Under the pieces are notes generated by a model. It was not told the DNA's origin. It did not search any database and was given only the letters and a program-made list of their open reading frames with translations. The position numbers and the translations under genes were made by a program. Below are positions 2,916 to 63,601 of a stretch of DNA of 64,000 nucleotides, one piece after another. Origin of the DNA: Phycicoccus endophyticus. GTDB taxonomy: Bacteria > Actinomycetota > Actinomycetes > Actinomycetales > Dermatophilaceae. The stretch's first letter is position 1. Every line of letters starts with the position of its first letter. The stretch lies in assembly GCF_011326735.1 (NCBI RefSeq), contig NZ_JAANCN010000007.1, positions 62,001-126,000 on the forward strand, written 5' to 3'.

Positions 2916-4292
2916 ATGGACGGGAGTGCGGCGACAGCCACCGAACGGCCGCCGGCCGGGGCGGGCGTGGCCCGCGTGCGCCGCTCGCTCGCCGCGGTCG
3001 ACCTCGCCGCGCTCACCGACCGCGAGCGTCTCGAGCTCGTCACCGAGCTGGAGCGGCTGAAGGGGGCCGCCTGCGCCCTCCAGGCGCGGGCCGTGGAGGA
3101 GGTGCGGGCCTCCCAGACGCGCGACGGGTCGCAGGGCGCCCGGCGCGGCCTCCGGTCGCAGGACGCCCGGCGCAGCCTCGGCTCGCAGGTCGCCCTGGCA
3201 CGGCGGGAGTCGCCGGTGCTCGGCGACCGGTTCGTCGGGCTGTCGCACGTTCTCGTGCACGAGATGCCGGCCACCATGCGGGCCCTCGAGCAGGGGCTCG
3301 TCGGGGAGCGCCACGTCCTCGAGGTCGTCCGCGAGACGGCGACCCTCTCTCGCGAGCACCGCGCCGTCGTCGACGAGCGCGTCGCACCCCTGCTGCCCCG
3401 GCTCGGCTGGCGCTCCGCCGGGCGTGCCGCGCAGCGCGTCGCGGCCGAGCTCGACGCCGCCGGCGTCGTGCGCCGGATGGAGCGGGCCGTCGCCTCCCGG
3501 CGGGTCACGGTCCGCCCGGCTCCCGACGGCATGGCCTACCTCACCGTGCTCGGCCCCCTGCGCGACGTGGTCGGCGCCCAGGCCGCGCTGCAGGTCCACG
3601 CCCGGGCCGTCGCGGGCGGCCGGTGCGCCGACGAGGCCGCCGACGGGCGGGCCGCGGGTGCGGTCGCTGCCGACACCGCGCTACGGCTGCTCTCCGGGCG
3701 GGCGCGCGGCACCGTGACGCCTGTGGAGGTCCAGCTCGTGATGACCGACCGAGCCCTCCTCGGCACGGGCGACCCGCTGCGCTCGCCGATGGAACCCGGC
3801 CGCGTGCCCGGCCACGGCCCCGTCCCGGCCCCGGTGGGCCGGGCCTGGGTCCGTGCCGCCGGTGCCGGTGCGGTCTGGGTCCGGCGGCTCTACACCGCCC
3901 CCGGCGGGCGCGACCTCGTCGCGATGGACTCCCGCCGCCGGGGGTTCTCCGGCCTCCTGCGCCGTCTGCTCGTGCTGCGTGACGATGTCTGCTCGACCCC
4001 GTGGTGCGACGCGGCCATCGTCCACGCCGACCACACCCACCCTGTCCGTGCCGGAGGGCCCACCAGCCTGGCCAACGGCGCCGGGCGCTGTGCCCGGTGC
4101 AACCAGGTCAAGGAGGCACCGGGGTGGCGGGTCCACGTGGTCCGCGGCTCCCCGCTCGAGCTCGAGCTCGTCGACCCGACCGGGCGCCGCCACCGCTCCC
4201 AGGCACCACCCCTGCTCGGCTGGGGCAGCGACCCACCCCCGGGCACCTCGGCCCTGGAGAGCCACCTGGCCGCCCTGCTCGACGCCGCCTGA
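2916..4292 (+). CDS. DUF222 / HNH endonuclease domain protein (13E12-type)
   Basis: 458 residues. The N-terminal two thirds are a DUF222-type helical region ([24 protein letters not shown] and onward). The C-terminus has an HNH-like zinc site: [25 protein letters not shown], then [13 protein letters not shown]. Such proteins are multicopy in actinobacteria (the 13E12 repeat family of M. tuberculosis) and are suspected nucleases of mobile origin; no activity is proven here. Three 27-bp tandem repeats sit in the linker at residues 72-92. The ATG at 2916 is fixed by a leaderless -10. Base composition matches the neighbours, so any acquisition is old. It interrupts the fahA/hmgA neighbourhood. 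Confidence 0.85.
3129..3209 (+). repeat. In-frame 27-bp tandem repeat inside the DUF222-HNH gene
   Basis: Copies begin at 3129, 3156 and 3183 with TCGCAG; the first two are near-identical and the third is diverged after about 10 bp. They encode a 9-residue unit of the form SQxARRxLx, repeated before the catalytic region. 27 bp preserves the frame. Confidence 0.75.
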
Positions 4293-34365: not shown

Positions 34366-36948
34366 GTGGCGCTCCACCGGCCCGGCCCCGCCCGCGTCGT
34401 CCCGACGGCGACCTACCGCCTCCAGGTCCACGGCGGCTTCACCTTCGAGGACGCCGCGGCGCAGGTGCCCTACCTCGCCGCGCTCGGCGTCTCGCACGTC
34501 TACCTCTCCCCGGTGCTCCAGGCGGCCCCCGGGTCCACGCACGGTTACGACGTCCTCGACCACACCCGCGTCAGCGAGGAGGCCGGCGGCCGGGAGGCCT
34601 TCGACCGGCTCGTGGCGGCGTGCCGCGAGCACGACCTCGGCGTGGTCGTCGACGTGGTCCCCAACCACATGGCCGTCCCGTCGCCCGAGCACCTCAACGC
34701 GCCGTTCTGGTCACTCCTGCGCGAGGGGACCCGCTCGCCGTACGCGGGCTGGTTCGACGTCGACTGGCTGGCCGAGGACGAGCGCATCCTCATGCCGGTG
34801 CTCGGCGGCACCCTCGAGCAGGTCATCGACCGGGGCGAGCTCGTGCTCGCCGACGACGGGGGGCCGAGCGGCAGCGAGCACGTCCTGCGCTACTACGAGC
34901 ACGAGTTCCCCGTGGCACCCGGGACCGAGCAGCTGCCGCTCGCCGAGGTCGTCGACGCCCAGGCCTACCGGCTCTCGAGCTGGCGCGAGGGCGACGCGCT
35001 GAACTACCGGCGCTTCTTCGACGTCACCTCGCTCGTCGCCGTCCGCGTCGAGGATCCCGTCGTCTTCACCGCGACCCACGCCCTGCTCCTCGCACTCCAC
35101 GGGCACGGCGCGGTCGACGGCTTCCGGATCGACCACCCCGACGGGCTCGCCGACCCCGGGGGCTACCTCGAGCGCCTCGCCGAGGCCACCGGCCGGGCCT
35201 GGGTCGTCGTGGAGAAGATCCTCGAAGGGAGCGAGCAGCTGCCCGACGCGTGGCACTGCGCGGGGACGACGGGCTACGACGCGCTGCTGCGCGTCCAGCA
35301 GGTCCTCACCCCGAGCGACGACGGTGGCACCCTGGACCGGCTGTGGGCCCAGGCCGCGCCCGACCTGGTCGACCTCGACGCCGTCGTGGCCGAGTCCAAG
35401 CGGCTCGTCGTCGACGACGTCCAGGCTGCCGAGGTCGACCGGCTCATGCGCCTCGCGCGCCGCGTCGTCCCGGACGCCGATGCGGCGGCGCTGCGCCGCG
35501 CGCTCGAGGCGCTGCTCGTCGCCATGGACCGCTACCGGGCCTACGTCGTGGCCGGCCGGGCGGTCGACCCCGAGCAGGCGGCCGTCGTCGACGACGCGGC
35601 CGCCCGAGCGCGGGGGCAGCTCGCCCCGAGCGACCACGACGCCCTCGACCTCGTCGTGCGTCTCGTCCTGGACCGCGAGCTGCCGGAGGCGGCCACCGAC
35701 AGCGGCCGGGCCGCCGACGAGCTGCGGGTGCGCTTCCAGCAGACCTGCGGGCCGGTCATGGCCAAGGGGATCGAGGACACCGCCTTCTACCGGTGGTTCC
35801 GGCTCGCCGGCGCCAACGAGGTGGGCGGCGACCCCCGCACGCTCTCGCTCGACGTGGACGGCTTCCATGCGTGGTGCACGCGGCAGCAGGCCGAGTGGCC
35901 CACGTCGATGACCACCCTGACCACCCACGACACGAAGCGCTCGGAGGACACCCGCGCCCGGCTCATGGTCCTCGCCGAGGACGCCCCGGGGTGGGAGCGG
36001 TGGCTCGGGCAGGCGCGCGAGCTCGCCGCACCGCACCGCACCCCGAGGGTCGACCTCCCGACCGAGTACCTCGTGTGGCAGACCCTCGTCGGCACCTGGC
36101 CGATCAGCGGGGCGCGGCTCGAGGAGTACCTGCTCAAGGCGGTCCGCGAGGCCAAGGTGCACACGGCCTGGGTGGACGGGGACGCGGAGTACGAGGCGGA
36201 GATCGTCGCCTTCGCGCGCGCTCTCGGGCGCGACCTCGCGGTGCACGAGCACCTCGACGCGTGGACCGGGCCCCACGAGGCCTCGGTGCGGGCGAACATC
36301 CTCGGCCAGAAGCTGCTCCAGCTGACGATGCCCGGGGTCCCCGACGTCTACCAGGGGTGTGAGCTGGGGATGCTCGCGCTCGTCGACCCCGACAACCGTC
36401 GCCCGGTCGACTGGGCCGACCGTGCCGAACGGCTGGCCCGGGTCGACGACGACGAGCCGTGCTTCGACCTCGACGACGACAAGATGCGGCTCACCGCCCT
36501 GGCGCTGCGGCTGCGGCGCGAGCACCCCGGTGCCTTCGTCGGCGACGGGGCAACGTACACGCCGGTGGGCTGCGAGAGCGGGCACGCGCTCGCCTTCGCC
36601 CGGGGCGACGCCGAGGGGCCGCGTGCCGTCAGCGTCGTCACCCGGGCCGCGGGCCGGCTCGCCGAGGCCGGCGGCTTCGGGCCGGCGCGGGTAGCGGTGC
36701 CGCCGGGTGAGTGGCACGAGGTGCTCTCCGGCCGGGTGCTCACCGTCGGTGCCGAGGGGCTGGCGCTCGCCGAGCTGCTCGCCGAGCGCCCGGTGGCGCT
36801 GCTCGTGCGGCCTGCTCGCCAGGACCCGCCGCCCGCGCCCGACGACGGGGCCGGCGGCCAGCCGACCGGCGCGGCAACCGACGGGGAGACGACCGGCGCG
36901 GCGGCCGACGAGCCGGCCGACGACGAGGTGGCGGGGTACCCGTCATGA
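34366..36948 (+). CDS. treY: Maltooligosyltrehalose synthase
   Basis: 860 residues. Converts the reducing-end alpha-1,4 bond of a maltodextrin to alpha,alpha-1,1. N-terminal TATYRLQVHGGFTFEDAAAQV and SPVLQAAPGSTHGYDV; catalytic Asp in VDGFRIDHPDGLADP, Glu in VVEKILEG, Asp in TTHDTKRSED. The C-terminal 40 residues are a low-complexity Pro/Gly/Ala/Asp tail not expected in the family. It begins 4 nt after the glgX stop and overlaps treZ by 4 nt. Confidence 0.95.
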   Translation: MALHRPGPARVVPTATYRLQVHGGFTFEDAAAQVPYLAALGVSHVYLSPVLQAAPGSTHGYDVLDHTRVSEEAGGREAFDRLVAACREHDLGVVVDVVPNHMAVPSPEHLNAPFWSLLREGTRSPYAGWFDVDWLAEDERILMPVLGGTLEQVIDRGELVLADDGGPSGSEHVLRYYEHEFPVAPGTEQLPLAEVVDAQAYRLSSWREGDALNYRRFFDVTSLVAVRVEDPVVFTATHALLLALHGHGAVDGFRIDHPDGLADPGGYLERLAEATGRAWVVVEKILEGSEQLPDAWHCAGTTGYDALLRVQQVLTPSDDGGTLDRLWAQAAPDLVDLDAVVAESKRLVVDDVQAAEVDRLMRLARRVVPDADAAALRRALEALLVAMDRYRAYVVAGRAVDPEQAAVVDDAAARARGQLAPSDHDALDLVVRLVLDRELPEAATDSGRAADELRVRFQQTCGPVMAKGIEDTAFYRWFRLAGANEVGGDPRTLSLDVDGFHAWCTRQQAEWPTSMTTLTTHDTKRSEDTRARLMVLAEDAPGWERWLGQARELAAPHRTPRVDLPTEYLVWQTLVGTWPISGARLEEYLLKAVREAKVHTAWVDGDAEYEAEIVAFARALGRDLAVHEHLDAWTGPHEASVRANILGQKLLQLTMPGVPDVYQGCELGMLALVDPDNRRPVDWADRAERLARVDDDEPCFDLDDDKMRLTALALRLRREHPGAFVGDGATYTPVGCESGHALAFARGDAEGPRAVSVVTRAAGRLAEAGGFGPARVAVPPGEWHEVLSGRVLTVGAEGLALAELLAERPVALLVRPARQDPPPAPDDGAGGQPTGAATDGETTGAAADEPADDEVAGYPS

Positions 36949-38915
36949 CGACACCGGAGATCCGGGTCTGGGCGCCCTACCCGCAGCGTGTCGACATCGA
37001 GTGGTCCCCCGTCCCCGATTCGACCAATAGGTCACGAGAAGCACACCCTCCTGTCGCTGATTCGACCAATAGGTCACGAGAGGCACACTCTCCTGTCGCT
37101 GATTCGACCAATAGGTCACGAGAGGCACACCCTCCCGTCGCTGACGTGACCTATTGGTCGAATGGGAGACGGCGGGAGGCGATGGAGGCGGCCGGGGACG
37201 GCTGGTGGCGGTGGCCGCTTCCCGAGGGGGTGGCGGCGGTCGACTACGCCTTCGTCCTCGACGGCGAGGAGCCCGCTCTGCCCGACCCGCGCAGCGCCTG
37301 GCAGCCCCGCACCGTCCACGGTCCGAGCCGCACGGTCGACACCGGTGCCTTCGCGTGGAGCGACGACGGATGGCGCGGCCCACGCGGCGGTGCCGGTTCG
37401 CTCGGCGGCGTCTTCTACGAGCTGCACGTCGGCACGTTCACCCCCGAGGGGACCTTCGAGGCCGCCACCGCGCGGCTGGACCACCTCGTCGAGCTCGGGG
37501 TCGACGTCGTCGAGGTCATGCCGGTGGCTGCCTTCCCCACCGACCGCGGCTGGGGGTACGACGGGGTCGCCCTGTACGCCGTCCAGGACTCCTACGGCGG
37601 CCCCGCCGCGTTCGCGGCCTTCGTCGATGCCTGCCACGCGCGCGGCCTCGGCGTGTGCCTCGACGTCGTCCACAACCATCTCGGGGCGAGCGGCAACTAC
37701 CTCGCCCGCTACGGCCCGTACTTCACGCAGGCCCACGAGACGCCCTGGGGCCCCGCGGTCAACCTCGACCACGACGGCTGCGGGGTCGTGCGGCGCTTCC
37801 TCCTCGAGAACGCGCTGCGCTGGCTGCGCGACTTCCACGTCGACGCCCTGCGCCTCGACGCCGTCCACGAGCTCAAGGACGACTCCCCGCGGCACTACCT
37901 CGCCGAGCTGTCCGACGAGGTCGCGGCCCTGGCGCACGAGCTCGGCCGCACGCTCGACCTCGTCGCCGAGTCCGACCTCAACGACACGATGATGGTGACG
38001 CCGACGACGAGTGGCGGCCGGGGGATGACGGCGCAGTGGGACGACGACCTCCACCACGCGCTGCACGTCGCGCTCACGGGGGAGACCCAGGGCTACTACG
38101 CCGACTTCGCCGGTGCGCCCGACGGCCCGCAGCAGGGGCCCCTCGCCGTGCTCGCGAAGGTGCTCACCCGGGGCTTCCTCCACGACGGCACGCACTCCTC
38201 GTTCCGCGGGCGGGACTGGGGCGCCCCGGTCGACCGCGAGGGCCTCGACGCCCGACGGCTCCTCGGCTACCTCCAGACCCACGACCAGGTCGGCAACCGG
38301 GCCACCGGCGAGCGGATCTCCGCCCTCGTCGCCGACCCCGCGCTCCAGGCCGCCGGGGCGGCGCTCTACCTCCTGGCGCCCACGACCCCGATGCTCTTCA
38401 TGGGCGAGGAGTGGGCCGCCTCGACGCCCTGGCAGTTCTTCACGAGCTTCGCCGAGGACTGGCTCGCCGACGCCGTCCGAGAGGGGAGACGCGCCGAGTT
38501 CGGGTCCCACGGCTGGTCGGCCGAGGAGGTGCCCGACCCCCAGGACCCGGCCACCCGCGACCGCTCGGTCCTGCCCTGGTCCGAGCTCGGGGAGCCGGCA
38601 CACGCCCGGATGCTGCGCTGGTACACCGACCTCGTCGCGCTCCGGCGCCGGCTCGTCGGCACGGGGGCGACCCGCCTGGCCGACGTCGAGGTCGAGGCCG
38701 ACGAGGCCGCCCGCTGGCTCCTCCTGCGGCACCGGCCGACCGGCGGTCGGCAGTATGCGGTTCTCGTCACCCTCGGTGAGGACGGGGCGAGCGTGCCCCT
38801 GGCCGGGGCGGGGATCCCATGGCTCGCCTGGGACGCAGCCGCCGTGGCCGTCACGGACGAGGCCGTCACCCACCGGCGGCGCGGCGTCTCGGTCCATCCC
38901 GACGGGCACCCCTGA
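36945..38915 (+). CDS. treZ: Maltooligosyltrehalose trehalohydrolase, with repeat insertion in its N-terminal domain
   Basis: 656 residues. Hydrolyses maltooligosyltrehalose to trehalose. Catalytic Asp in LRLDAVHEL, Glu in VAESDLND and Asp in QTHDQVGNR; N-terminal VWAPYPQRVDIEW and LPDPRSAWQP are family marks. Between VDIEW (about 24) and the GDGWWRW strand (about 83) the E-set domain is interrupted by about 50 extra residues: three copies of a 14-residue unit DSTNRSREAHxPVA and then VTYWSN, encoded by the 37017-37163 repeat. The frame is intact because the period is 42 bp. Whether the product folds normally is unknown. Confidence 0.93.
   Translation: MTTPEIRVWAPYPQRVDIEWSPVPDSTNRSREAHPPVADSTNRSREAHSPVADSTNRSREAHPPVADVTYWSNGRRREAMEAAGDGWWRWPLPEGVAAVDYAFVLDGEEPALPDPRSAWQPRTVHGPSRTVDTGAFAWSDDGWRGPRGGAGSLGGVFYELHVGTFTPEGTFEAATARLDHLVELGVDVVEVMPVAAFPTDRGWGYDGVALYAVQDSYGGPAAFAAFVDACHARGLGVCLDVVHNHLGASGNYLARYGPYFTQAHETPWGPAVNLDHDGCGVVRRFLLENALRWLRDFHVDALRLDAVHELKDDSPRHYLAELSDEVAALAHELGRTLDLVAESDLNDTMMVTPTTSGGRGMTAQWDDDLHHALHVALTGETQGYYADFAGAPDGPQQGPLAVLAKVLTRGFLHDGTHSSFRGRDWGAPVDREGLDARRLLGYLQTHDQVGNRATGERISALVADPALQAAGAALYLLAPTTPMLFMGEEWAASTPWQFFTSFAEDWLADAVREGRRAEFGSHGWSAEEVPDPQDPATRDRSVLPWSELGEPAHARMLRWYTDLVALRRRLVGTGATRLADVEVEADEAARWLLLRHRPTGGRQYAVLVTLGEDGASVPLAGAGIPWLAWDAAAVAVTDEAVTHRRRGVSVHPDGHP
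37017..37163. repeat. Four-core repeat element inside treZ (period 42 bp)
   Basis: Cores GACCAATAGGTC begin at 37022, 37064 and 37106; a flipped core GACCTATTGGTC begins at 37148. All four are exactly 42 bp apart. Around the flipped core, 19 bp (37145-37163) is the exact reverse complement of the ATTCGACC...GTCACG segment in the direct copies. The first three 42-bp units differ only at a few positions. 42 bp is 14 codons and about four helical turns. A related array lies at 63418-63590. Confidence 0.9.
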
Positions 38916-63384: not shown

Positions 63385-63417
63385 CCCGGGCCGGCCGTCC
63401 CGTCCCGTTCCCAGATC

Positions 63418-63590
63418 GACCAATAGGTCACGGTGGGCACAGTGCGGTGGGTGCCGGGTGTGCCTGGAGTGACCAATAGGTCACGGTGGGCACAGTGCGG
63501 TGGGGGCCGGGTGTGCCTGGAGTGACCAATAGGTCACGGTGGGCACAGTGCGGTGGGGGCCGGGTGTGCCTGGAGTGACCTATTGGTCAC
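63418..63590. repeat. Four-core repeat array downstream of trmB (period 53 bp)
   Basis: Cores GACCAATAGGTC begin at 63418, 63471 and 63524; the fourth, at 63577, is flipped (GACCTATTGGTC). All are exactly 53 bp apart, about five helical turns. The 53-bp units are nearly identical. The first about 24 bp of each unit match the treZ element (core, CACG, then GCACA). Non-coding here; 53 would break a reading frame. Confidence 0.9.
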
Positions 63591-63601
63591 GTGGGGGACG
63601 G

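Follow-up and report, generated by a model that had tools for sequence, protein, structure and literature searches.

The repeat array inside the treZ gene of the 64-kb stretch of DNA analysed here (the window) is one of 26 dispersed clusters of a short palindromic site in the genome that holds the window (G000; 3,177,191 bases in 21 contigs), and is not specific to treZ. The clusters are strongly associated with a gene for a 310-residue protein, and from this association we infer binding, cleavage and copying: we judge it fairly probable that the treZ element is one of 26 cognate-site clusters of this AbiEi-like/Vsr-fold protein, and that cleavage followed by copying spreads the sites. The observations suggest that actinobacteria harbour a hitherto undescribed class of DNA repeats that spread.

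The treZ (malto-oligosyltrehalose trehalohydrolase) frame runs on the plus strand from an ATG at 36945 to a stop at 38915 (36945..38915 of the window); the name, a provisional one, is that of the first-pass annotation, and Alpha-amylase and DUF3459 are the sole Pfam matches of the product, in whose N-terminal part that annotation had placed a putative E-set domain. The array occupies 37010..37172, in the N-terminal part of the frame. Three cores read GACCAATAGGTC on the plus strand (37022..37033, 37064..37075 and 37106..37117) and a fourth is inverted, on the minus strand, reading GACCTATTGGTC on the plus strand (37148..37159), so that the order is + + + −. The first-pass annotation had reported these four cores, their 42-bp spacing, the flipped last core and a frame that stays open across them, all of which we confirmed in the sequence. 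It had also put the added length at about 50 residues. There is extra length at this place; its size is smaller, the G000 TreZ being 42 residues—three 42-bp units—longer than that of the congener G011. A second array of the same family lies at 63406..63600, with cores at 63418, 63471 and 63524 (plus strand) and 63577 (minus strand), 53 bp apart, and is intergenic according to a home-made gene finder. Allowing up to three mismatches, TTCGACCAATAGGTCACG occurs seven times in the window, against 0.01 occurrences expected from shuffling. A HicA-like small reading frame was noted by eye downstream of the second array (L052:3740-4003, contig C19).

Searching the whole G000 genome for GACCAATAGGTC with at most one mismatch gave 97 exact and two one-mismatch copies, and the reversed control pattern gave two. 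The cores group into 26 clusters of one to seven exact cores each, which excludes an element found nowhere else, the outcome that the first-pass annotation had said would count against its reading. Each core is the centre of an imperfect palindrome of about 36 bp, roughly CCGTCCCTGAATC-GACCAATAGGTC-ACGTCAGGNACG, and 61 of the 97 sites have TC to the left and AC to the right of the core. Plus cores precede minus cores in 18 of the 26 clusters, eight clusters have a single orientation, and the reverse order never occurs; the flipped last core at treZ is thus genuine, but as a general trait of G000 clusters rather than a peculiarity of treZ. The 27 clusters of G011 comprise 13 of type '+-', 13 of one orientation and one '+-+-'. 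Units inside an array are near-identical and in tandem, with between-site stretches down to about 6 bp; being tandem duplicates, they are not independent of each other. Arm identity was 0.63 at loci orthologous between G000 and G011 and 0.61 within G000, and because the identity between species matches that within G000, concerted evolution of the G000 family is at most weakly suggested.

By our own simple GC3 gene finder, some of whose calls are doubtful, four of the 26 clusters are intragenic and 22 intergenic (eight convergent, 11 tandem, three divergent). The intragenic clusters are in frame in every case; their host proteins are TreZ, a HyuA-like protein, a dihydroorotase-like protein (at its N-terminus) and a lipoyl-E2 (in a linker). 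Several housekeeping genes, named by eye, flank clusters. A lone site of this family (family 1) was seen upstream of a gene that by eye is dnaN-like (L048:2984), in a stretch holding TGTGGAC/TTGTCCA-like boxes that may lie close to the replication origin. That convergent clusters outnumber divergent ones would suit elements that act at the RNA level, as transcribed hairpins serving as terminators or mRNA stabilisers, and three of four single sites (z −2.3 to −3.9) as well as both window arrays (z −5.5 and −7.5) fold well as RNA. Against this, the treZ site, taken singly, gains nothing in folding over shuffled sequences (z −0.73), Rfam at gathering scores found no family at the arrays in seven loci, hairpins require no 10.5-bp phasing of the kind described next, and the link to a gene would go unexplained, so that we regard RNA-level elements as very improbable. 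An msiK regulatory RNA (RF01747, 55 bits) lies away from the arrays in G003 (L159:2744-2801).

That the treZ cores are helically phased had been proposed from the window, and the proposal held when extended to 60 arrays in G000, G011, G005 and G003, each contributing one spacing. Fifty of the 60 are spaced at 42-44, 51-53 or 62-64 bp; a free scan of periods from 6 to 20 bp peaked at 10.44 bp (R 0.76), the phase at 10.5 bp was 7 degrees, and none of 300 uniform-spacing trials reached the observed phasing. The 25 arrays of G000 alone gave R 0.92 at 10.5 bp and the 17 arrays of family 2, which is unrelated in sequence, gave R 0.86; the 18 arrays of G011 alone were weaker (R 0.55) and offset by about one base. 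As the period of the spacings equals the pitch of B-DNA, a bound protein is favoured over RNA or single-stranded hairpins, and the phasing points to protein bound on double-stranded DNA. Tandem duplications spaced by chance, with treZ as a common hot spot, would amount to a neutral coincidence. This is helped by the non-independence of units within an array and by the fact that orthologous arrays may have inherited a common spacing by descent, but the phasing stands with a single value per array, and repeats 50-53 bp apart recur in unrelated sequences beside homologues of the gene in other genera; we give coincidence hardly any credence.

Among 38 relatives, the 14-mer GACCAATAGGTCAC, present in 87 copies in G000, was found in the congener G011 only (58 copies), which in two housekeeping genes is the genome farthest from G000 (80.4%). 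Family 2, the sequence-unrelated sister family, belongs to G003, G005 and G008: its 13-mer CGACGAATGTGTC has 32 copies in G005, 16 in G003 and six in G008, is absent from the other nine of the 12 genus genomes, and recurs mostly at spacings of 42, 52-53 and 63 bp. The core GACCWATWGGTC occurs with family-1-like arms in the metagenome-assembled genome (MAG) Go_SlAct_bin_340 (26 copies), and with other arms in Janibacter HTCC2649 (11), Knoellia locipacati (12) and a MAG (L061; eight).

All 12 genus genomes have a TreZ homologue. The codons of the G000 array were inspected by eye in these relatives. A single site stands there in G011, and repeats built on a GACGAATGTGTC-type core in G005 and in G003, whose second unit is degenerate; G008 carries TCGTCGAMAGCGACGA repeats, the linker of G004 looks degenerate and the remaining six genomes are free of arrays. 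Because different repeats occupy the same codons in G005/G003 and in G008, the G000 repeat sequence is not ancestral. A simple insertion into treZ, as the first-pass annotation had it, is not supported: the single-site linker of G011 equals in length the linker of G010, which has no site, and so the treZ site looks to have been written over existing sequence and to have multiplied afterwards through duplications of 42 bp. When flanks were compared among the fetched loci with arrays masked, an array of another species lay at the orthologous place, both flanks matching, for nine of 23 G000 array loci (L032, L033, L034, L039, L040, L043, L046, L050 and treZ); at L049 one flank supported it. The repeats at such places are unlike each other; one case is the E2 linker in G000, G005, G003 and G008, a spot that carries no repeats in G009, G001, G004 and G011 (eight of the 12 genus genomes viewed in all). 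These species-specific sequences at orthologous positions, together with a gene that tracks the repeat families, argue for selection or active copying over decay, as had been thought from the even spacing at treZ.

Family-2 sites also lie within a coding sequence whose product, by eye, is an Fe-S protein (L145, L149 and L155, of G005, G008 and G003, near 3230-4000), where they recur every 81-144 bp and give a growing, STNVS-containing C-terminal part that varies between species. Array-less genomes were sampled over 400 kb each (G010, of 4.07 Mb, and G006, of 3.50 Mb). A first scan, which also missed both window arrays, found zero and one cluster, respectively, the latter recognised by eye as a palindrome adjoining G006's own Vsr-fold homologue; a second scan, which recovered both window arrays, found two clusters per sample, none judged to be of this kind and one of them parS-like. 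Viral carriage was considered and rejected: 18 viral stretches with a two-core pattern look by eye like collagen-like coding repeats, nine single-core viral matches showed no arrays in the roughly 180 bases read, and phage and plasmid records gave no DNA match to the treZ array.

The gene for the 310-residue protein lies outside the window, at C1:44960-45889 of G000 (L032:3961-4890, on the minus strand of L032), and its G011 orthologue at L066:5433-6362; in both genomes arrays bracket it. Orthologues with 62-70% identity are present in G011, G005, G003 and G008, and the best match in the other seven genus genomes reaches at most 49%. The carriers are thus exactly the five of 12 genus genomes that have repeat family 1 or 2. 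A random draw of five would match them once in 792, a figure to be taken as a guide only, since all 12 genomes behind the correlation are related members of a single genus. Every one of the five carriers has sites of its own repeat family both upstream and downstream of the gene; in G003 and G008 the cores of the downstream copies deviate by one or two bases from the form searched for, and in G000 a MOSC gene separates the gene from the array on one side. A sixth orthologue, 64% identical to the G011 and G000 proteins, came from MAG Go_SlAct_bin_340, in a locus retrieved solely through the DNA pattern; a single site lies upstream of it and two lie downstream. In the orthologue tree the family-1 proteins do not form a clade. 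The orthologues of Janibacter HTCC2649 and Knoellia locipacati are exceptions to the flanking rule: they have no repeat shared upstream and downstream, the repeats in the 350 bases read are one-sided and differ from GACC cores, and the GACC-core sites of these two genomes are not beside the orthologue.

The N-terminal half of the protein is AbiEi-like and probably a winged helix, and its C-terminal half resembles, in the predicted model, a Vsr/homing-endonuclease-like fold. PADLOC AbiEi models matched all three proteins compared, with best E-values of 3e-8 to 5e-7; the modelled N-terminus has pLDDT <50. Confidence in the structure model is low (mean pLDDT 54; mostly <50 over residues 1-120). 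The best Foldseek E-value, 0.034, belongs to an unrelated protein and that of I-Bth0305I is 0.21; the Vsr-type match comes from a second-look alignment, with the VIA-align rows below the Vsr entries left out. A search of solved-structure sequences gave one match, weak and unrelated, and MTES_1575 scores under the Pfam cut-off in all six proteins. Residues E231, D233, H237 and D246 are invariant in the six orthologues.

AbiEi proteins bind inverted repeats, and the Vsr-fold protein might do no more than this, as an autoregulator or nucleoid organiser whose nuclease half is uninvolved in spread, the arrays being selected sites. Its AbiEi-like N-terminus would fit such a role, sites adjoining the gene suit autoregulation, and cooperative binding would select same-face phasing. 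By itself, however, binding explains neither the sites in coding linkers, nor the convergent excess over divergent clusters (eight against three of 22), nor the tandem near-identical units, and the four invariant residues also speak against it; we consider binding alone unlikely.

In the reading that we prefer, in which cognate sites are spread by cleavage and copying, the protein would bind each ~36-bp imperfect palindrome as double-stranded DNA, and sites lying whole helical turns apart would align neighbouring bound proteins along the same side of the helix. The sites or their immediate surroundings would be cut or nicked and then repaired from other copies, leading to overwriting and duplication in the manner of homing. 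Such copying could carry sites to tolerated places such as gene ends and protein linkers, grow arrays, keep each genome's family alike and swap one repeat family for another at the same positions. Judged from sequence, it is likely that the arrays are cognate sites of the Vsr-fold protein family; that the Vsr-fold half spreads them by cut-and-copy is plausible, if unproven.

In genomes lacking families 1 and 2, homologues carry other repeats, and by eye the upstream and downstream copies resemble each other in G010 (CCCGTCGAAAGTACAGAACACGCCGTC and its complement), in G001 and G009, in G002 and in G006/G007, as they do beside a second paralogue in G003/G008. Beside the G004 homologue, copies were seen downstream only; a poly-G/poly-C run upstream of it (L278:1290-1327) is possibly an assembly artefact or a collapsed repeat. 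The second paralogue is framed by several CCCGCACGTGCGGGGTTATCGCTGTC-like copies per side (L283, contig C7 of G003, ~1240-1480 and 2550-2760), those upstream being 51 bp apart. We compared the 400-bp flanks of 55 homologue loci from the genus, four other genomes and a family sample, using 660 mismatched pairs as the null; flanks were set from match ends and not gene ends, so that partial matches shift them. Upstream and downstream flanks matched each other beyond 99% of the null at 25 of the 55 loci and at none of 34 control-gene loci. Forty-one loci reached a score attained by at most 2.6% of the mismatched pairs and 14 fell under the 18-point cut, two of these 14 being duplicates of others; L305 and L310 duplicate L286 and L288, leaving 53 distinct loci, and L276/L277 and L283/L284 are orthologous and hence not independent. 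Repeats 50-53 bp apart flank 20 of 51 homologue loci (the six family-1/2 orthologues and two duplicates omitted) and none of 320 random windows or 68 control flanks, two of the latter having strong repeats of other periods. The palindromicity of the shared flank repeats, 0.26 versus 0.13 per nt, is modest on average, so that some of them are not palindromes.

Homologues occur on plasmids as well. Six records gave a match and five were fetched, four of which (three Arthrobacter, one Tsukamurella) have the same repeat on both sides, 46-67 bp and partly palindromic; the Nonomuraea plasmid homologue has no flank repeat. Among the sampled genomes of the window organism's taxonomic family, 76 of 79 have a match to the Vsr-fold family. 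Some have many (13 in G017; nine each in G051, G056 and G096), and several repeat families may therefore coexist in them.

The flank data also bear on whether the repeats are MITE- or REP-like elements moved by an unrelated transposase, with the Vsr-fold gene as passenger or landing place. Like REPs and MITEs, the sites are short, inverted, dispersed and often near gene ends, and the Janibacter and Knoellia GACC-core sites lie away from the orthologue. As for MITE features, the clusters have inward-facing ends, and alignments of orthologous loci are without a clean empty site. PF01797, the only transposase family searched, was found in none of the 12 genus genomes and matched in five of 14 control genomes, and the RAYT/Y1 transposase is rejected as the partner. 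A passenger gene, moreover, leaves unexplained both the two-sided, homologue-specific repeats in two orders and their contrast with control genes, and we hold this origin to be quite improbable. Returning to cleavage and copying by the Vsr-fold protein, we see about an even chance that it represents a widespread, undescribed actinobacterial element: a gene for an AbiEi-like/Vsr-fold homing-type nuclease framed by its own phased repeats, often 51-52 bp apart. In some genomes such an element would seed dozens of loci, protein genes included, with palindromes and overwrite at those places the families that earlier relatives had.

In sources represented largely by less than their full texts, we found no publication tying DUF559, MTES_1575 or AbiEi proteins to such repeats; searches for literature joining REP, Actinobacteria and RAYT, or DUF559 and inverted repeats, likewise gave none. 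A cognate repeat adjoining the gene provides members of the Vsr-fold family with a testable DNA target, and the phasing lends itself to an immediate biochemical test. If the proposal is true, these proteins would form a second class of enzymes that can sustain REP-like repeats, would hint at what to seek beside repeats with no known enzyme, such as CGTC REPs, and would offer natural in-frame protein insertions that differ in sequence between sister species.

Several known systems invite comparison. The arrays differ from CRISPR in having no unique spacers, the between-site stretches being near-identical within an array. Known Vsr-like homing endonucleases such as I-Bth0305I reside in introns, whereas the proposed targets here are multiplied palindromes and the N-terminus is AbiEi-like. 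Rickettsia palindromic elements are, in the part of the source available, in-frame palindromes inside protein genes (PMC10969869). The four intragenic G000 clusters are likewise in-frame palindromes in unrelated genes; compared by description, they differ in consisting of arrayed ~36-bp sites, where the Rickettsia elements are solitary and ~150 bp long, and a partner gene is proposed for them. CGTC-tagged REPs (Di Nocera 2013) are described in the available portion of PMC3733652 as hairpin repeats with 4-5-nt loops, an unpaired CGTC tag and no dedicated transposase, mostly from alpha-Proteobacteria; in that portion the word Actinobacteria is absent and untagged REP-like repeats of M. tuberculosis are mentioned. 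The G000 sites are also short hairpin repeats whose outer arms start with CGTC in the consensus, but there the CGT is able to pair with the ACG in the opposite arm. REP, BIME and REPIN sequences, treated in part in the same source (PMC3733652), are short, mostly extragenic palindromes, often in inverse pairs, with a RAYT gene flanked by the repeats and with families that vary among related genomes. Our repeats, too, are short dispersed palindromes, mostly intergenic (22 of 26 clusters) and often inversely paired, their families differ between related genomes, and a dedicated gene is flanked by them, here the Vsr-fold gene, on both sides in all six family-1/2 orthologues. They depart from REP/RAYT in the helical phasing at 42/52/63 bp and in a consensus of 97 G000 and 69 G011 sites without the GTAG end tag. 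Since no RAYT was found, we do not count them as REP/RAYT; by analogy, the system appears to work like REP/RAYT without a RAYT, with a Vsr-fold protein bearing an AbiEi-like N-terminus as the partner in place of a Y1 (PF01797) enzyme.
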